From: Methylotenera sp.
GTDB lineage: Bacteria > Pseudomonadota > Gammaproteobacteria > Burkholderiales > Methylophilaceae
Reading direction: 5' to 3'
NCBI GenBank assembly: GCA_030655015.1
Contig: JAURWJ010000115.1
Coordinates: 1 to 64,000 of the forward strand
DNA: 64,000 nt
How positions within the stretch are numbered: position 1 is the stretch's first letter; the number at the start of each line of letters is the position of its first letter. Position numbers and translations under genes: made by a program. The notes beneath the pieces are model-generated. The model was not told the origin of the DNA and did not search any database. It was given only the letters and a program-made list of their open reading frames with translations. Of the stretch, positions 1 to 39,699 are shown piece after piece.

Positions 1-7
1 GGGTATT

Positions 8-83
8 TGGTAGGAGATGGGGGGTTCGAACCCCCGACAAATGGATTAAGAGTCCACTGCTCTACCAACTGAGCTAATCTCCC
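8..83 (-). tRNA. tRNA-Lys (anticodon CTT)
   Basis: Reverse complement GGGAGATTAGCTCAGTTGGTAGAGCAGTGGACTCTTAATCCATTTGTCGGGGGTTCGAACCCCCCATCTCCTACCA folds as a cloverleaf; anticodon loop CTCTTAA; encoded CCA. Confidence 0.95.
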
Positions 84-309
84 GCAAGGGCTTGGATTAT
101 CAAGATAAAGTAGCCCAATGTCAAACAGAAAACCAAATAAATAGCACTGATGAACCCAGATTATCCATTAGACACCTATTCCCTCCCCTTTATAGGGGGA
201 GGGCTAGGGAGGGGGTGAAAATGCCACCTTTCGCTGCATGGGGAAGGAACTAGTTTAGTTCTAATGAACAATCTCGGATCAATTCAGCTCACCGACGCTG
301 TCCATGCCG

Positions 310-1155
310 CTATTCATAACGCTCACGCAAAAAACTTGCAAACCTTGGCTTGCCGCTAGCCGTTTTATCGCGGTAGGTATAGGTAACAAGGCTGCCAATT
401 TTTGGCGGATCTTCGCGTTGCGCATCACTCAAGCCTGTGCCCAGTTTGAAGCGTATGCCTTCAGGGGTTTCTACGACCAGCGCACCAAGCTTGCCTCTAT
501 ATTTTCCGCGCCCTGGTGTATGTGCCACCACGGTGGCCTCAGCATCGTTTTGCAATTTTAATTTTAGTAGCGTATCACTTCGCCCTGTCACATATTGCGC
601 ATCGGCTCGATGTAACATGAGCCCTTCTCCACCAAGAGCTACAACTTGTTTAAGCTGTGCGTTGAGCGCAGCCTCATCTTTAACACGAAGTTGCGTCACG
701 GCTTTTAGGTGTGGGATGTTGACCTGTGTAACGATTTCAACAATGCGTTGCGCGCGTACTTGAAATGCTCCCTGCGCGTTTGGTAACTCAAAAACAAGAT
801 AGGAAATGCCGCGCCACTCTTCATCAATAGGCACGTTTTTCCTCACCGCGCCTGAAAGCATCTCAAACTTGCCGCGTGCAAGCCACAACTCACCATCAAG
901 CGGTGTTGCTGGAAAACCTTGAGTAAACCACGCTGGGGCTGCAATAACGCGCCCAGAACGCGTATGAAAAGTTTTGCCATCCCACACTGCACGTACACCA
1001 TCAAATTTTTCACTCACCAAAAATTGCCGCACATCAATGCCAGACTGGTAAACCTGCGCCAACAATACATTGGACGTCATTTGTTCAGCCAATAATGGTG
1101 AAACAGGCGCACCAGCAATAGCGATTAAAAGTAATAAACGGATGAGCTTCATCAC
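310..1155 (-). CDS. ATP-dependent DNA ligase, LigE-like, with predicted signal peptide
   Basis: SEKFDGVRAVWDG (KxDG nucleotidyltransferase motif), DGELW, GGEGLMLHR; hydrophobic N-terminus MMKLIRLLLLIAIAGAPVSPLLA; compact 281 aa. Confidence 0.85.
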   Translation of the reverse strand: MMKLIRLLLLIAIAGAPVSPLLAEQMTSNVLLAQVYQSGIDVRQFLVSEKFDGVRAVWDGKTFHTRSGRVIAAPAWFTQGFPATPLDGELWLARGKFEMLSGAVRKNVPIDEEWRGISYLVFELPNAQGAFQVRAQRIVEIVTQVNIPHLKAVTQLRVKDEAALNAQLKQVVALGGEGLMLHRADAQYVTGRSDTLLKLKLQNDAEATVVAHTPGRGKYRGKLGALVVETPEGIRFKLGTGLSDAQREDPPKIGSLVTYTYRDKTASGKPRFASFLRERYE

Positions 1156-29165: not shown

Positions 29166-30494
29166 ATGAACACTCAAGCGAAATCTTGGCATAACTTGGA
29201 ACTAGAGCATGTACCTTACGCACTGGCTGGTCATGATGTGCCATGGGTATTGGCGGCGCGCCAGTCAGCATTCGCGCGTTTTGCGGCGCATGGGCTCCCG
29301 ACTCGGCGTGAAGAAGAATGGAAATATACCGATGTGTCGGTGATCGGCAGGCGCACTTCTCTGGCACCTGATCACATTCCGCCCGACCCGTCATCTGAGG
29401 CCAAGTTGCTTGCGTGGACATTAGCGAGCGAAGATATGCATCTTATGGTGTTCGTTAACGGCCATTATGCTCCCGGGTTATCCATGATCGGCGATTTGCC
29501 TGCGGGCGTGCGAATAACAAGCCTGGCTGACACGTTAGATGATGCGGCTGACTTGCCACAGTATTTATTCGATCAGCAGCATGAACATACCATTTTCGCT
29601 GCCCTTAATAACGCTTTTGCTACCGATGGCGCGCTGCTGAATCTAGCACCAGGGACAGTACTGAAAGCACCGATTTACCTGCTGTTTATCGCCAGCGGAC
29701 ACGGTGTGGCGATTTATCCGCGTAATATCGTAGTTGCTGGGGATGGCGCACATGCCACGATAATCGAACATTACATGGGCACGCTGGACGCACACAATTT
29801 CACTAATGTTGTGACGCAAATCAATCTCGGTACTCACGCTGAAATTGAACATTGCAAGTTACTACAGGAAGGTCCTGCCGCCACCCACATTGCCGGCATC
29901 CATGCTGAGCAAGCCGCGGACAGCCATTTTGTTTCGCACGCCTTCTCTCTAGGCGGTCGCCTCGCACGTAATGACATCACAGCGCAACTGTTAGGCAAGG
30001 GTTGCCATTGCACCATGAATGGTTTATATCTACTTGATGACCGTCAGCATATTGATCACCACACTCGTGTTGACCATTTAGGAGCCGAGGGCGTCAGCCG
30101 GGAACATTATCGAGGCATTCTGGATGGGGAGTCGCGCGGCGTATTTAACGGCAAGGTAGTGGTTCACCCCGGAGCCAACAAAACTGATGCTCACCAGGCC
30201 AATCACAACCTGCTACTGTCGCGGCAAGCTGAAGTGGATACCAAGCCACAACTGGAAATTTTTGCTGATGACGTGAAATGTACGCATGGTGCCACGGTCG
30301 GGCAGTTGGATGATGATAGCCTGTTCTACCTGCGTTCGCGTGGAATCGATGCCGAGCTGGCACGTTCAGTGCTGATCTACGGTTTTGCCAATGACATTAT
30401 CGGACGCATTGGCGTGCCGGATCTGCGCACACGCATCGAACATCTGGTGCTAGGACGTTTGCCACAAGGCGACCAGATCAAGGAGTTGCTATGA
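29166..30494 (+). CDS. sufD: Fe-S cluster assembly protein SufD
   Basis: Position; ATTRREEEWKYTDVS-like, DDVKCTHGATVGQLDDDSLFYLRSRGI. Confidence 0.95.
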   Translation: MNTQAKSWHNLELEHVPYALAGHDVPWVLAARQSAFARFAAHGLPTRREEEWKYTDVSVIGRRTSLAPDHIPPDPSSEAKLLAWTLASEDMHLMVFVNGHYAPGLSMIGDLPAGVRITSLADTLDDAADLPQYLFDQQHEHTIFAALNNAFATDGALLNLAPGTVLKAPIYLLFIASGHGVAIYPRNIVVAGDGAHATIIEHYMGTLDAHNFTNVVTQINLGTHAEIEHCKLLQEGPAATHIAGIHAEQAADSHFVSHAFSLGGRLARNDITAQLLGKGCHCTMNGLYLLDDRQHIDHHTRVDHLGAEGVSREHYRGILDGESRGVFNGKVVVHPGANKTDAHQANHNLLLSRQAEVDTKPQLEIFADDVKCTHGATVGQLDDDSLFYLRSRGIDAELARSVLIYGFANDIIGRIGVPDLRTRIEHLVLGRLPQGDQIKELL

Positions 30495-31765
30495 TGATGG
30501 ACCATCTATTTCAACCCTTGGCTTACCGCGACGAAGGTGCAGAGAATCTGGCAGTGCAGCGTTGGCGTACAGATTTTCCTATTCTGGAAACCAATGTCCA
30601 CGGCAAGCCGTTAGTCTATTTAGATAACGCAGCCACCACGCAGAAACCACTAGCGGTGATTGAGGCCGAGAGCCTGTATTACCGTCATGACAATGCTAAC
30701 GTGCATCGCGGCGTGCATGCCCTGAGCCAGCGTGCCACCGATGCCTTTGAAGCGGCGCGAGTCAAAGTACAAGGTCTGATCAACGCTGCCAGTTCCAATG
30801 AGATTATTTTCGTACGCGGCACCACCGAGGCCATCAACCTAGTGGCACAAAGCTACGGGCGTAGCCGTTTCAAAGCTGGTGACGAGATCATCCTGAGCCG
30901 GATGGAGCACCACTCTAACATCGTACCCTGGCAGATATTGTGCCAGCAGACTGGTGCCAGCCTGCGCATTATCCCTATTAACGATGCCGGCGAGCTGGAA
31001 CTGAAAGCTTACGAACAACTGCTTGGTCCGCGCACCAAACTGGTAGCAGTGGCACATGTTTCTAACGCGCTGGGCACAATCAACCCTGTCAGGGCAATGA
31101 TAGACTTGGCTCATGCTCACGGTGTGCCGGTACTGCTCGATGGTGCGCAGGCCATCGCTCACTTGCCAGTCGATGTGCAGGCACTGGATTGCGACTTTTA
31201 CGCATTTTCTGGGCACAAGCTGTATGGTCCCACCGGCGTTGGCGTGCTCTACGGCAAAAACGCTTTGCTTAATGCCATGCCGCCGTACCAAGGCGGCGGC
31301 GATATGATTCGCTCGGTCAGCTTTGATGGCACCACCTACAACACGCTGCCATACAAGTTTGAGGCCGGTACGCCCAATATTGCTGGCGTCATCGGTCTGG
31401 GCGCCGCGGTAGATTACGTGGCCAATATCGGCTTTGATGCGCTTATTGAGCATGAACAAGCATTATTGACTTATGCAACGCAGGCGGTCATTGATATTCC
31501 GGGATTGCGCATCATTGGTAATGCACAGGAAAAAACCGGCATCCTGTCATTCGTGTTAGAGGGTGCGCATCCCCACGATATTGGCACGATACTGGACCGC
31601 CAAGGCGTAGCAATCCGCACTGGGCACCATTGCACAATGCCGCTGATGGAGCATTTCGGCGTATCAGCCACAGCACGCGCCTCGTTCGCCTTGTACAACA
31701 CGAGAGCTGAGGTGGATAAACTGGTAGCGGCAATTTATCAGGTGAAAGAGGTATTTGGACGATGA
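30491..31765 (+). CDS. sufS: cysteine desulfurase SufS
   Basis: YLDNAATTQKPLAVIEAE, RGTTEAINLVAQSYG, FSGHKLYGPTGVGVLYGK, IRTGHHCTMPLMEHFGV (active-site Cys). Confidence 0.96.
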   Translation: MMMDHLFQPLAYRDEGAENLAVQRWRTDFPILETNVHGKPLVYLDNAATTQKPLAVIEAESLYYRHDNANVHRGVHALSQRATDAFEAARVKVQGLINAASSNEIIFVRGTTEAINLVAQSYGRSRFKAGDEIILSRMEHHSNIVPWQILCQQTGASLRIIPINDAGELELKAYEQLLGPRTKLVAVAHVSNALGTINPVRAMIDLAHAHGVPVLLDGAQAIAHLPVDVQALDCDFYAFSGHKLYGPTGVGVLYGKNALLNAMPPYQGGGDMIRSVSFDGTTYNTLPYKFEAGTPNIAGVIGLGAAVDYVANIGFDALIEHEQALLTYATQAVIDIPGLRIIGNAQEKTGILSFVLEGAHPHDIGTILDRQGVAIRTGHHCTMPLMEHFGVSATARASFALYNTRAEVDKLVAAIYQVKEVFGR

Positions 31766-33355: not shown

Positions 33356-33700
33356 ATGAGTTCAGTATTAATCGTAGGTGGTGACCAAATTGATGGCATC
33401 AAACAAGTGTTATTGAATTATGGTATTGAGCATATCAATCATTGGTCAGGTCGAAAAGTGGGTGACAGCAATAAAGTCATCCCGCAGGATACCAAGATTA
33501 TTGTGTTAATCACCAACTGGATTAGTCACTCCATTACGCATAAAGTAAAACGCAATGCGCTGAAACGCGGCATAAAAGTAATTTATACGCCTAATGGTCC
33601 AAGTGCATTACAAAGCCGATTACAAAAAATCGGGCCTGATTTAGCACTGGAGGCTGATTGTAAATACCCCCATAGCACACACTCACATTTACTGCATTAA
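33356..33700 (+). CDS. DUF2325 domain protein
   Basis: MSSVLIVGGDQIDGIKQVLLNYGIEHINHWSGRK...IVLITNWISHSITHKVKRNALKRGIKVIYT. Confidence 0.8.
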   Translation: MSSVLIVGGDQIDGIKQVLLNYGIEHINHWSGRKVGDSNKVIPQDTKIIVLITNWISHSITHKVKRNALKRGIKVIYTPNGPSALQSRLQKIGPDLALEADCKYPHSTHSHLLH

Positions 33701-34522: not shown

Positions 34523-36406
34523 CTAAAGCCCACCTGGCGTTTTATGTGAAGTTAAACGCAGCAAAGCATTTACCATTACATCTACTTCAGCAGGAGTGTT
34601 ATAAAAAGCAAGTGATGGTCTCACTGTAGTTTCTAAACCAAAACGACGCAAAATCGGTTGCGCGCAATGATGTCCCGAACGCACCGCAATACCCTCTTGG
34701 TTTAATGCCGCGCCCACCTCTTCACTCTTATAACCATCCAGCGTGAAAGATAGCACACTCGCTTTTTCTTTAGCAGTGCCCACCAAATGCAAACCTGGTA
34801 CTTTTTGCATGGCAGTTGTTGCATACAATAACAACTCATGCTCATAACGTGCAATATTATCAATGCCTACGCGCTCTACATACTCTAAAGCTGCACCCAA
34901 ACCTACTGCATCGGCAATATTACCCGTACCGGCCTCAAACTTAGATGGCGCTTCATGATAGACGGTTTTATCAAACGTCACATCTTGAATCATATTACCG
35001 CCACCTTGCCATGTTGGCATATCAGCCAGCAACTCAGGCTTACCATATAGTGCGCCAATACCGGTTGGGCCAAATACTTTGTGTCCTGAGAACACAAAAA
35101 AGTCTGCATCTAAAGCCTGTACATCTGAGCGCATGTGTGACACGGATTGCGCACCATCCAGTAGCACTTTAGCACCTGCACGATGCGCCATCTGTATCAT
35201 CTCTGTTGCAGGCGTCACTGTGCCCAACGCATTAGAAACCTGCGTAAATGAAACTAATTTCACCCGTGAAGTAAGTAGCTTTTGATATTCGGCCAGCAAC
35301 ACTTGACCACTATCATCCACAGGCGCAACTTTTAACTTGGCACCTGTTTCTTGGCATAGCTGCTGCCAAGGCACAATATTAGCGTGATGCTCGAGGTGTG
35401 AAATTAGAATTTCATCTCCTTCACCTATGTGCTTTTTGCCCCATGATTTAGCTACCAGATTAATCGCTTCTGTTGTTCCGCGAACAAACACAATGTTATC
35501 TACCGAAGGCGCATTGATAAAACGGCGCACCGTTTCACGAGCACCTTCATAGGCATCGGTTGCACGAGCCGCTAACTCATGTGCTGCACGGTGAATGTTT
35601 GAATTTTCATGCTGGTAAAAGTAGGCAATCCTATCAATTACCGCTTGTGGCTTTTGCGTAGTGGCTGCGTTATCAAACCAAATCAGCGGACGCCCATTCA
35701 CCAACTCGCGTAAAATTGGAAAGTCTTTGCGTACTAAATTAGCATCAAACGGCGGATACGCCGCTGTTGGCAATTGTTCAGATTGGTTAAATGGCGAGTC
35801 CTGTAAAAAATAATATGGGCTGCTACTAAAATTGCTTGTAATAGGGCTACCTGAACCATTATTGCTAGAACCACCAGTTTGCCTACCTGATGAGCTACCA
35901 AGCAAATTTTTCAGCTCGTTTTCATAAGGATTATCAAAACTGCCAAGCAATTGTTCAAGTGCGATATCATTTGTAGCAAATGGACTTGACGCATATTGCA
36001 ATTGCAAAACCTCTACATTTGCAATATCAGGTTTAGTTGATGCAATGCTGGGACTTGCTGACAAAATAGAAGGCGTAGGCGTTTGCACCGCACTTTGCTG
36101 CGTACTTAGCGGTGCACTGGCACTGGGCAAAACAGAATCCGTAGCAATGTGTGATAACGAAGCATTAGAAGGGAAATCCGGTTGCCTTCCTAATGGCGAA
36201 TCCGCAGGAAACCCTTCTGCATAGATTTCATTAACCATACGGCTTAACTCAACCACATCTAAATACCCCGTTTCGCTGGCTTGCCTACCTGATCCTAATG
36301 CCGCCGCCATGCGTGGATGCTCACCTGGCAGTGATACCAAAATAGCTTCTGGTTCAAATGACGATAAATCAGCCAAACTAGATGAAAATGTATTATTTGT
36401 ACTCAT
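34523..36406 (-). CDS. cysteine desulfurase with long N-terminal encapsulin cargo domain (Family 2A CyD)
   Basis: C-terminal SufS-type domain (WFDNAATTQKPQAVIDRIAYF, FSGHKVFGPTGIGALYGK, VRSGHHCAQPILRRFGL) preceded by ~220 aa Ser/Pro-rich low-complexity region; overlaps encapsulin gene by 14 nt. Confidence 0.93.
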   Translation of the reverse strand: MSTNNTFSSSLADLSSFEPEAILVSLPGEHPRMAAALGSGRQASETGYLDVVELSRMVNEIYAEGFPADSPLGRQPDFPSNASLSHIATDSVLPSASAPLSTQQSAVQTPTPSILSASPSIASTKPDIANVEVLQLQYASSPFATNDIALEQLLGSFDNPYENELKNLLGSSSGRQTGGSSNNGSGSPITSNFSSSPYYFLQDSPFNQSEQLPTAAYPPFDANLVRKDFPILRELVNGRPLIWFDNAATTQKPQAVIDRIAYFYQHENSNIHRAAHELAARATDAYEGARETVRRFINAPSVDNIVFVRGTTEAINLVAKSWGKKHIGEGDEILISHLEHHANIVPWQQLCQETGAKLKVAPVDDSGQVLLAEYQKLLTSRVKLVSFTQVSNALGTVTPATEMIQMAHRAGAKVLLDGAQSVSHMRSDVQALDADFFVFSGHKVFGPTGIGALYGKPELLADMPTWQGGGNMIQDVTFDKTVYHEAPSKFEAGTGNIADAVGLGAALEYVERVGIDNIARYEHELLLYATTAMQKVPGLHLVGTAKEKASVLSFTLDGYKSEEVGAALNQEGIAVRSGHHCAQPILRRFGLETTVRPSLAFYNTPAEVDVMVNALLRLTSHKTPGGL

Positions 36407-37310
36407 AGTAGTTGCCTACATCAACGTTTTCAAGCACGGCGATTGCGTCATCAGTTAACACCGCTAGTGAGCAATAGAGTGAAACCAAGTATGATGCAAT
36501 TGCCTTATGGTTAATGCCCATGAAACGTACTGACAAGCCCATGCTTTGTTGGCCGGGCAAGTTTGGCTGATACAAACCAACCACACCTTGACGGCTTTCA
36601 CCTGTACGTAACAATAGAATATTCGTTTTACCTTTGGTAACTCTTAATTTATCACAAGGGATAATCGGCACGCCACGCCATGTAATGAATTGTGAGCCAA
36701 ATAAGGCAACTGTTGGCGGCGGCACGCCACGACGTGTACACTCGCGACCAAATGCTGCAATTGCTTGTGGATGCGCTAAGAAAAATGCAGGTTCTTTCCA
36801 TACTTTTGAAAGCAACTCATCAAAATCATCAGGGGTTGGAGAACCACTGCGTGATTTCACTTTTTGTGCCGCCGCTACATTATGCAATAAACCATATTCT
36901 TTGTTGTTAATAAGCTCGCTTTCTTGGCGTTCTTTTACCGTTTCAATAGAAAGGCGTAATTGCTCTTTAATTTGGTTATGTGGGCTACTGTAAAGATCAG
37001 ACACACGCGTATGCACATCCACCACCGTGTTTACCGCGTTCAAGACATATTCACGCCCCCACTCTTCGTAGTCCACAAAGGTTGCAGGTAAGTCACGCTC
37101 ATCCTTAGCAGAACAATCTACTTCAATGGCATTTGGGTCTTTAGCTTTATTCAGGCGATAAATACCTGCTTCAACAGGCACCCAATGCATTAAATGCACT
37201 AACCAACGTGGCGTAATCGTGCTCAGCATTGGTGTCGATTTGGTTGCATTTGAAAGCGTACGTGCGGCAACGTCACCTAATGCGGTTTGATGATGGTTAA
37301 TATCTGTCAT
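36393..37310 (-). CDS. Family 2A encapsulin shell protein (SrpI-like)
   Basis: LSNATKSTPMLSTITPRWLVHLMHWVPVEAGIYRLNK, FFLAHPQAIAAFGRECTRRGVPPPTVALFGSQFITWRGVPIIPCDKL, LLLRTGESRQGVVGLYQPNLPGQQSMGLSVRFMGIN; adjacency to CyD; RBS AGGAG. Confidence 0.93.
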   Translation of the reverse strand: MTDINHHQTALGDVAARTLSNATKSTPMLSTITPRWLVHLMHWVPVEAGIYRLNKAKDPNAIEVDCSAKDERDLPATFVDYEEWGREYVLNAVNTVVDVHTRVSDLYSSPHNQIKEQLRLSIETVKERQESELINNKEYGLLHNVAAAQKVKSRSGSPTPDDFDELLSKVWKEPAFFLAHPQAIAAFGRECTRRGVPPPTVALFGSQFITWRGVPIIPCDKLRVTKGKTNILLLRTGESRQGVVGLYQPNLPGQQSMGLSVRFMGINHKAIASYLVSLYCSLAVLTDDAIAVLENVDVGNYYEYK

Positions 37311-37353: not shown

Positions 37354-38385
37354 TTAATGATGCTGTTGAGTTTCGTGTGTCGGTTTGCCTTCGCTGTTAG
37401 CATTTGTGTGATGCTGACTTGCATCTAATGGCGTAGCCAAGTTTTGCGCTTGGGTAATATTACTGCCAGCAGGCACGCTACGCGTGAGCCACACATTACC
37501 GCCAATTGCAGATCCGCGCCCAATGGTAATGCGCCCTAGTACGGTGGCACCTGCATAAATCACTACGTCATCCTCAACAATAGGGTGGCGCGCATTACCT
37601 TTTATCAAATAGCCATCTTCATCAACAGGAAATCGTTTAGCGCCCAGCGTCACGGCTTGATAAATGCGCACATGTTTGCCAATAATGGTCGTTTCACCAA
37701 TGACGACACCTGTACCGTGGTCGATAAAAAAACTTTCTCCTATATCTGCCCCAGGGTGAATATCAATGCCAGTAACCGAATGTGCAATTTCCGTCATCAT
37801 GCGTGCAATGAGCGGCAAGTTTAAGCCATGCAGTACATGTGCTAACCGATAATGAATCGTCGCCAATATGCCTGGATAACACACCAATACCTCATCAATA
37901 CTTCTGGCGGCAGGGTCGCCCTCAAACGCCGCTTTAATGTCGGTATCCAGCAACAAACGCACGCCAGGCAATTGTTTTGCAAACGCGCGCACAATGTCGA
38001 TAGGTGATTTTGTAACGTCACTCAAAGATTTATTCTGGTTAAACTGATTTTTTGTATCAACGACAAAATTTAATTCCAGTTTTACTTGTGCAATGAGTTC
38101 ACGCAACGCTACATCCAGTGTATGCCCCACAAAGTAATCAATGCCGTCATCTTTTAAGTCTGGCAAGCCTAAGCGGTTTGGAAATAAAGCCGCAGCCAAG
38201 CCTTCAACCACATCTTGCAATGCTTTTCGAGATGGCAACTTAGGTGGCTTATCGCGCCGTTTTCTAGTTTCTAGTGAAGAAAGCCGCAAGTTACGTAACT
38301 GCATCACAATTTGGCTAATGCCTAAATCGCTGGTAATTGCACTGGTAACGACACTTTCATCATCGTTATTTTGGTTAATTTTCAT
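37354..38385 (-). CDS. serine O-acetyltransferase (EpsC/CysE type)
   Basis: Left-handed beta-helix: GIDIHPGADIGESFFIDHGTGVVIGETTIIGKHVRIYQAVTLGAK, IVEDDVVIYAGATVLGRITIGRGSAIGGNVWLTRSVP. Confidence 0.93.
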   Translation of the reverse strand: MKINQNNDDESVVTSAITSDLGISQIVMQLRNLRLSSLETRKRRDKPPKLPSRKALQDVVEGLAAALFPNRLGLPDLKDDGIDYFVGHTLDVALRELIAQVKLELNFVVDTKNQFNQNKSLSDVTKSPIDIVRAFAKQLPGVRLLLDTDIKAAFEGDPAARSIDEVLVCYPGILATIHYRLAHVLHGLNLPLIARMMTEIAHSVTGIDIHPGADIGESFFIDHGTGVVIGETTIIGKHVRIYQAVTLGAKRFPVDEDGYLIKGNARHPIVEDDVVIYAGATVLGRITIGRGSAIGGNVWLTRSVPAGSNITQAQNLATPLDASQHHTNANSEGKPTHETQQHH

Positions 38386-38423: not shown

Positions 38424-38463
38424 AAAAACGCAAAAAGCCAGCGGTCTCTCGACACGCTGGCTT
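38424..38463 (-). terminator. terminator-like hairpin in the leader of the SAT-encapsulin-desulfurase operon
   Basis: Minus strand AAGCCAGCG-TGTCGAGAGAC-CGCTGGCTTTTTGCGTTTTT: perfect 9-bp stem with U-rich tail, ~40 nt before the SAT start. Confidence 0.75.
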
Positions 38464-38700
38464 CCGGTTGTCCGGTCAGCACACGCTAACTAATTAAAAT
38501 TAAATATTTGACTGGTAAATTTTAAATTACTAACCAACTAATATCTGCAATATACACCACTCTAGTAGGTAAAAAAAGAGCTGCCATAAAATTACTTTTT
38601 ACAATATTTAATTATAAATATATTACTTAACATTCTTTTAAATTATTTATAAAGACGTTTAAGATAACTAACTTCTAAATCTTTATCCTAGAGTAAACCC

Positions 38701-39699
38701 ATGTTTAAAAAATCCATTATTTCAAGTTTGTTTGTAATTTCAAACTTACTGCTAGTACCGAGTGCAAATGCAGATACAACATTGCTAAATGTTTCATATG
38801 ATGTCACCCGCGAGTTTTACAAAGACTTTAACCCCTCTTTTATTAAGCACTGGAAGCTAAAAACAGGCGAAACTATCACCATCAATCAGTCACATGGCGG
38901 CTCTAGTAAACAGGCTAGGTCGGTAGCTGATGGACTTGAAGCTGACATCATCACCATGAATCAAGCACCAGACATTGATATTTTGTATGAGCGCTCAAAG
39001 CTTATTCCTAAAGATTGGCAAAACCGTTTACCTAATGCCAGCGTGCCAACCACTTCAACCACAGTATTTTTGGTACGCAAAGGAAATCCCAAACAAATTA
39101 AAGACTGGGATGATTTAATTAAACTAGGCATTGCTGTGGTGCTTCCCAACCCAAAAACCTCTGGTAACGGCAAATATAGCTACTTGGCTGCCTGGGGTTA
39201 TGTGATTAAAAAAGGGGGCGATGATGCCAAGGCAAAAGAATTTGTCACCAAACTCTTTAAAAACGTACCTGTTTTGGATGCTGGTGGGCGTGGCGCAACC
39301 ACCACCTTCGCTCAGCGTGACATTGGTGATGTATTACTAACCTTTGAAAATGAAGTCAATTTAATCAAAAAAGAACTCGGCGATAAATTTGACGTTGTAT
39401 ATCCTTCAGCAAGTATTCTTGCCGAAAACCCTATTGCGGTGGTTGATAAATATGTAAATAAACATAAAAACCGTACCGTAGCAGAAGCCTATGCACAATA
39501 TCACTACTCTGAGACTGCACAGGAGATCGCAGCGCAGCATTACATCAGACCGAGTTTGGCCTCTGTGGCAGAAAAATACAAAAGCAGATTTAAAGTGCTA
39601 GATTTGTTCAGCGTCGATGAAGTATTCGGTAGCTGGACTAAAGCTCAAAAAACACATTTTGCCGATGGCGGTACGTTTGATCAGATTTATCAAAAGTAG
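38701..39699 (+). CDS. sbp: sulfate ABC transporter substrate-binding protein
   Basis: Signal peptide; LLNVSYDVTREFYKDFNPSFIKHWK, QSHGGSSKQARSVADGLEADIITMN, NPKTSGNGKYSYLAAWGY, DVVYPSASILAENPIAVVD. Confidence 0.95.
   Translation: MFKKSIISSLFVISNLLLVPSANADTTLLNVSYDVTREFYKDFNPSFIKHWKLKTGETITINQSHGGSSKQARSVADGLEADIITMNQAPDIDILYERSKLIPKDWQNRLPNASVPTTSTTVFLVRKGNPKQIKDWDDLIKLGIAVVLPNPKTSGNGKYSYLAAWGYVIKKGGDDAKAKEFVTKLFKNVPVLDAGGRGATTTFAQRDIGDVLLTFENEVNLIKKELGDKFDVVYPSASILAENPIAVVDKYVNKHKNRTVAEAYAQYHYSETAQEIAAQHYIRPSLASVAEKYKSRFKVLDLFSVDEVFGSWTKAQKTHFADGGTFDQIYQK

Follow-up and report, generated by a model that had tools for sequence, protein, structure and literature searches.

Among known Family 2A encapsulin systems, the SrpI/CyD pair of Synechococcus elongatus PCC 7942 (L119; PMC8049743) provides the experimental reference for the locus described here. 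In 2021, the N-terminal extension of the S. elongatus cysteine desulfurase CyD was found to be both necessary and sufficient for cargo loading (PMC8049743). Two conserved motifs, LARLANEFFS and AASPYYFLDG (motifs A and B below), were described in this extension; its first 100 residues loaded a reporter partly, the full-length tail loaded better, and the motif-B peptide alone failed to load (PMC8049743). Cargo density was located at the three-fold axis of the shell near F262 and Y273, and density in these 2021 maps was too low for building the cargo (PMC8049743). Extension-driven loading and motifs A and B are already published, and the general claim is known. The additions of this analysis beyond published work are a dissection of the tail into patches, a third motif (motif C) with variable copy number, and a lineage-specific block. 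Where the question is which residues of Family 2 encapsulin tails meet the shell, the conserved islands described below narrow the search.

We analyzed a 64,000-nucleotide stretch of a Methylotenera contig (the window), in which an operon on the minus strand contains epsC, the encapsulin shell gene, and cyd, in this order (Table 1). CyD scored 900.4 bits against the NCBIfam model of Family 2A encapsulin cargo (NF041166), which has a cut-off of 800, and its K443 and C581, the catalytic lysine and cysteine of SufS-type desulfurases, were invariant in a 55-sequence alignment. The shell exceeded the cut-offs of both PF19307 and NF041162; at only 305 residues, it is too short to contain the cNMP domain of 2B shells and falls in the SrpI-like HK97-fold class. 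Shells 90 to 96% identical to it were found in Methylotenera and related assemblies, with Methylophilaceae as the host family. The S. elongatus operon likewise contains epsC, shell, and CyD genes, with a shell 75% identical to ours, and an EpsC gene was present in 72 of 80 shell loci. Shell residues F263 and Y274 correspond to F262 and Y273 at the three-fold axis of SrpI, and this F and Y were kept in 95 of 96 shells. Whereas 234 bases separate shell and cyd in S. elongatus, the 3' end of the shell gene here contains the CyD start in an overlap of 14 bases. In 89 of 96 shell loci, cyd overlapped the end of the shell gene to the same extent and had its ATG in the equivalent position, and this retention suggests that translation of the two genes may be coupled.

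Table 1. Positions of the encapsulin locus, the elements of the CyD tail, and the SufS control in the window
Feature	Position	Strand	Sequence	Remarks
suf-operon SufS	30491..31765	+		Without the extension
Cysteine desulfurase CyD ORF	34523-36406	-		627 aa
SufS-type desulfurase core, residues 218-627	34526..35755	-		SGHK lysine K443 and GHHC cysteine C581
CyD N-terminal extension, residues 1-217	35756..36406	-		No counterpart in SufS
Motif B, residues 195-206	35789..35824	-	SSPYYFLQDSPF	Published as AASPYYFLDG
Motif C, residues 156-170	35897..35941	-	SFDNPYENELKNLLG	Predicted helix 162-169
Residues 141-155	35942..35986	-	SPFATNDIALEQLLG	First half of patch 2
Motif A, residues 48-68	36203..36265	-	YLDVVELSRMVNEIYAEGFPA	Predicted helix 51-64
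Lineage block, residues 13-38	36293..36370	-	DLSSFEPEAILVSLPGEHPRMAAALG	Predicted helices 19-24 and 31-46
Family 2A encapsulin shell	36393..37310	-		NF041162, 534 bits (cut-off 380)
Serine O-acetyltransferase EpsC	37354..38385	-		First gene of the operon
Leader RNA element R1	38427..38480	-	GCUGACCGGACAACCGGAAGCCAG	Followed by terminator hairpin and U run; upstream of epsC-shell-cyd

A first-pass annotation of this DNA had described about 220 residues with low-complexity Ser/Pro/Gln stretches in front of the aminotransferase core. We found an extension of 217 residues, confirming its presence, but the start assigned to it at 35700 lies about 18 residues within the conserved core. Sequence shared with SufS-type desulfurases starts at approximately residues 218 to 220 of CyD, and the class-V aminotransferase core as defined by Pfam starts at residue 242. 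The low complexity was borne out, with Ser, Pro, and Gln together making up 33% of the extension (Ser, 18%; Pro, 9%; Gln, 6%) versus 13% of the core. The extension also carries 21 acidic versus 7 basic residues (net negative 14), and contains all of the patches quoted in the first-pass annotation. The suf-operon SufS of the same genome, which has a homologous desulfurase core 54% identical to that of CyD and is thus a diverged control, lacked both the extension and the motifs and reached 677 bits against the 800-bit cargo cut-off. The DFPIL sequence occurred at residue 28 in SufS versus residue 228 in CyD, about 200 residues earlier, and motifs A and B were absent, in agreement with the suggestion that SufS serves as an internal control.

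Searches of Pfam and of PDB sequences with the extension returned zero matches. Disorder prediction, one of the checks that had been proposed, was run with AlphaFold2 on CyD as a single chain with a 55-sequence alignment. Most of the core was modeled with high confidence, and pLDDT fell below 50 at residues 1 to 15, 91 to 160, and 168 to 216, as expected for a disordered tail. Helices were predicted in the tail at residues 31 to 46 and 51 to 64, with pLDDT near 70, together with a short helix at 162 to 169. Residues 1 to 90 modeled alone gave the same helices, three in number, at pLDDT values of 54 to 77 and a pTM of 0.35, values too low for a confident domain in this region. We also considered a phage origin or a known fold for residues 1 to 70, and rejected both since PHROG, phage, Pfam, and PDB searches were all without a match. 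The models suggest that the tail helices probably form on binding and do not constitute a stable domain.

To define conserved elements of the tail, we gathered CyDs encoded next to 80 shells in public genomes, plus relatives, which yielded 89 distinct tails of about 90 to 331 residues. Every 12-residue window of the CyD tail was scanned against 54 non-redundant tails from outside the Methylophilaceae, each of which was compared with 30 shuffles of itself. Only three clear peaks emerged from this unbiased scan, at motif A (DVVELSRMVNEI; mean z of 5.4, with 87% of the distant tails above 2.5), motif B (SSSPYYFLQDSP; mean z of 3.0), and motif C (PYENELKNLLGS; mean z of 2.4), and all other windows remained at a z of about 1 or lower. 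The corresponding conserved islands are LDVVELSRMVNEIYAE for A, NPYENELKNLLG for C, and SSPYYFLQDSP for B. Motifs A and B were each detected in 30 of 30 Methylophilaceae tails, versus approximately 0.02 occurrences per shuffled tail. N59, Y199, and F200 were invariant in the 55-sequence alignment, and D50, L54, P67, P160, and L201 were at least 90% conserved. Alignment with homologues had been named as a check on the patches quoted in the first-pass annotation, and with three islands conserved, the proposal survives.

We used pN as the measure of constraint, as dN/dS per block is unusable where synonymous sites are saturated, which was the case all along cyd except for the first 12 residues, where it overlaps the shell gene. 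Values of pN were 0.10 for residues 13 to 38 (0.098) and for motif A, 0.23 for C, 0.20 for B, and 0.05 for the core, versus 0.39 to 0.45 for the linkers and residues 141 to 155. By this measure, A, C, and B are more constrained than the linkers, indicative of purifying selection. These data bear on the idea that the islands are remnants or generic features of disorder and that loading is set not by motifs but by the overall composition of the tail and its length. The wide range of tail lengths and the scarcely conserved linkers are consistent with such an idea, but the three islands exceeded composition-preserving shuffles across lineages and are under purifying selection, so that we regard it as very improbable. 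The 217-residue tail is narrowed to three short islands and one lineage block, with half of one candidate patch dropped. Dissected in this way, the tail predicts which truncations should matter and can serve the mapping of loading sites and the design of short loading tags.

The lineage block was the most conserved part of the tail within the family, as residues 15 to 37 were 85% conserved and ungapped in 29 Methylophilaceae, and it was undetected in 60 tails outside the Methylophilaceae. The first patch quoted in the first-pass annotation is therefore composite: motif A, with LSRMVNEIYAE at residues 54 to 64 equivalent to the published LARLANEFFS, is pan-family, but SSFEPEAIL..GEHPRMAAAL is conserved in Methylophilaceae only. 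The tails of Methylovulum and of Alphaproteobacteria contain HPRA stretches, which had raised the idea of GEHPRM as a fourth pan-family motif; we rejected this idea because matches outside the Methylophilaceae were insignificant (best p of 0.037 among 60 tails). The second patch was likewise retained in part, with FDNPYENELKNLLG conserved but FATNDIALEQLLG (residues 141 to 155) resembling a linker at 34% conservation and a pN of 0.448.

Motif C follows the consensus P[GFY]ExELxxL[LF] and is spelled NPYENELKNLL here, PLPFEDELRALL in Nitrosomonas, and GLPGEAELQKLF in Methylococcales, with a C-like counterpart, FGLPGDDALRELL, in Burkholderia. Profiles for C trained on one lineage recovered C in others; the Methylococcales profile scored 79% of the nitrosomonad tails and 70% of the Methylophilaceae tails above 95% of their own shuffles. 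Most tails had the motif order A-(C)n-B with n from 0 to 4, and 39 of 89 were exactly ACB. The Nitrosomonas and Methylococcales CyDs (L041-L100) shared this order, with up to two and up to four C copies, respectively, by the relaxed pattern, and both differed from the Methylotenera CyD in lacking the 13-38 block. The CyD of Acinetobacter baumannii (L120), an organism on whose 2A encapsulin later work reportedly exists, shared motif A, FYFL/YYFL B motifs, and a C-like FQLPHGDQLKSLL with ours, and differed in having two B motifs that flank the C-like stretch. The S. elongatus CyD resembles this CyD in its disordered N-terminal domain of about 225 residues with A and B, but contains two A-like stretches, a B-like stretch, and no clear C, and the Methylophilaceae block is absent. 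The lack of a clear C in S. elongatus CyD implies that C is dispensable for loading in general. Motif C was also weaker than A and B, with the strict form absent from many tails and the relaxed form absent from 20 of 89.

Longer tails had more C copies, both in the full set (Spearman coefficient of 0.51) and in Methylococcales (0.62), with no trend in Methylophilaceae; these correlations are descriptive only, as the relaxed pattern used for counting picks up a few A-like stretches as well as C, and tails from relatives are not independent data points. We found no description of motif C in PMC8049743 or PMC8346489, and other papers on 2A encapsulins could have it. As a tentative proposal, to which we assign somewhat less than an even chance, the tails may form a modular A-(C)n-B series in which C is a shell-binding unit multiplied from zero to four times, its copy number would set the strength of loading, and the Methylophilaceae would have added a helical segment. 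Natural variants with two to four copies of C (PLPFEDELRALL or GLPGEAELQKLF) occurred at L041-L048, L069, L081, L089, and L100, and represent natural material for testing copy number against cargo loading.

Motif B, with SSPYYFLQDS at residues 195 to 204, matched the published AASPYYFLDG and differed from A in its spacing. The distance from B to the core had a median of 29 residues (range of 24 to 47; CV of 0.13), versus 16 to 259 residues from A to B (CV of 0.37). Since the B-core spacing is nearly fixed, B may act beside the enzyme, maybe without contacting the shell. The earlier view of all patches as shell-binding candidates holds in that they are conserved, but they appear unequal, given that the first 100 residues of the S. 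elongatus tail load a reporter and the B peptide alone fails (PMC8049743). One alternative to a shell-binding tail in its entirety is that only the N-terminal part (residues 13 to 68, with A) binds the shell and C and B serve the enzyme, with B binding back to the CyD dimer, or to a partner, close to the active site, for instance to adjust enzyme activity within the shell. The fixed B-core spacing and the partial loading by the S. elongatus N-terminal fragment agree with such an arrangement, which we consider possible but rather doubtful, because the full-length S. elongatus tail loads better than its first 100 residues, indicating that the remainder contributes (PMC8049743), and AlphaFold2 gave no confident contact between B and the core.

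The tail was also tied to the shell by its distribution. Among 61 genomes (our own and relatives), 18 contained the shell and the same 18 contained a tail-bearing CyD (one as a contig-end fragment), with neither occurring alone, and a tail-bearing CyD followed the shell in 80 of 80 shell loci, two of them cut by contig ends. L076 and L079, which we considered as shells lacking CyD, were both cut at contig ends and were rejected as such. Of the 1,861 other ORFs in these loci, only 2 had an A-then-B signature, and these were the two CyDs cut by contig ends. We found no second protein with this tail in the Methylotenera genome, where the tail occurs once, and an apparent free-standing tail gene, an 89-residue frame in G023, proved to be cut by the end of its contig. 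This exact co-occurrence, along with the loading experiments on the S. elongatus homologue (PMC8049743), makes it hardly credible that the extension is a localization or regulatory domain with no tie to the shell, for which we found no supporting point beyond the absence of a match to a known domain.

The first-pass description of the extension, as a disordered region that loads a Family 2A CyD as cargo, is thus upheld by the NF041166 score, the AlphaFold2 disorder, and the co-occurrence with the shell, in addition to loading by the S. elongatus homologue (PMC8049743). Family membership, predicted disorder, three islands, motif order, and exact shell co-occurrence are direct support from our own data. 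We consider it very likely that residues 1 to 217 form a disordered cargo-loading domain, with motif A as the first candidate for docking near the three-fold site, C as a candidate for extra contacts, and B as a putative second anchor; contacts motif by motif and avidity from C we infer. Under this model, CyD would be translated from its start codon within the shell gene, and its tail would present an A-(C)n-B series of short motifs, with variable linkers rich in Ser, Pro, and Gln between them. Motif A, which may become an amphipathic helix once bound, would dock on the interior surface of the shell close to F263 and Y274 at the three-fold axis, and in Methylophilaceae, the lineage-specific helical segment 13-47 would prolong it on its N-terminal side. 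Motif C could supply further weak contacts, and B, held a short fixed distance from the core, could provide a second anchor to either shell or enzyme. The linkers would allow the CyD dimer to hang within the cage.

The leader upstream of epsC folded with a stability z of -4.7 relative to shuffles and contained a 54-base element, R1, with the consensus GCUGACC[GA]GANNNC[CU]GGAAGCCAG followed by a covarying terminator hairpin and a U run. R1 exceeded 50 bits in 48 of 80 shell loci (among L021-L100), with 50 copies in total as two loci had two, always in the sense orientation, and a weaker match of 31 bits occurred at L064. The element was also noted at L193, L202, L204, and L208-L215. Its hosts among the shell loci were Methylophilaceae and Methylococcales, and it went undetected in the 13 loci tested from cyanobacteria, Acinetobacter, Burkholderia, Azospirillum, and the like. 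Nine of 16 pairs changed on both sides; the 41 cells of two-sided changes compare with 8.0 for shuffles and no more than 9 for slid structures. Same-genus matches above 45 bits came from the 16 encapsulin-bearing genomes of the genus and from G034, and in a sample of 399 genomes of the phylum, such matches occurred in G000 and G415 only. Some methanotrophs had extra copies of R1 before cysK, the shell gene itself, a cysJ-like gene, or a sigma-54 regulator gene. We found zero matches to R1 in Rfam 15 and no precedent in the literature searched. The obvious reading of these sequence data is that R1 is a candidate sulfur-responsive attenuator or small riboswitch. R1 is probably more novel than the tail findings and possibly the more general discovery, as it would link the expression of the encapsulin in methylotrophs with their sulfur assimilation.

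Two copies of R1 occurred in other contexts. In G034 (L221; G034:C294, bases 1-520, minus strand), an intact R1 lies beside a sulfate-binding-protein gene and is followed by a transposase-like fragment, with no encapsulin operon; apparently, the operon was lost through an insertion element or the contig is misassembled. In Methylobacillus, L214 (G415, the same genome as L034) has a weaker second copy at 1501-1557 on the minus strand (47.6 bits), which precedes the gene for a predicted outer-membrane-like protein of 424 residues and is off consensus (CCUGA..CAGG). This copy may represent an additional regulon member or may be no more than a terminator.

Two neighbors of the encapsulin operon recurred across shell loci. 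A sulfate/thiosulfate-binding protein gene (38701-39699, plus strand) is divergent from the operon and has relatives in 39 of 80 shell loci, fitting a role in sulfur supply. Downstream, a gene for a small DUF2325 protein (33356-33700, plus strand) lies close to the operon in convergent orientation; of the 80 shell loci, 24, from Methylophilaceae and Nitrosomonas, encode relatives of this protein, which may act in the same pathway.
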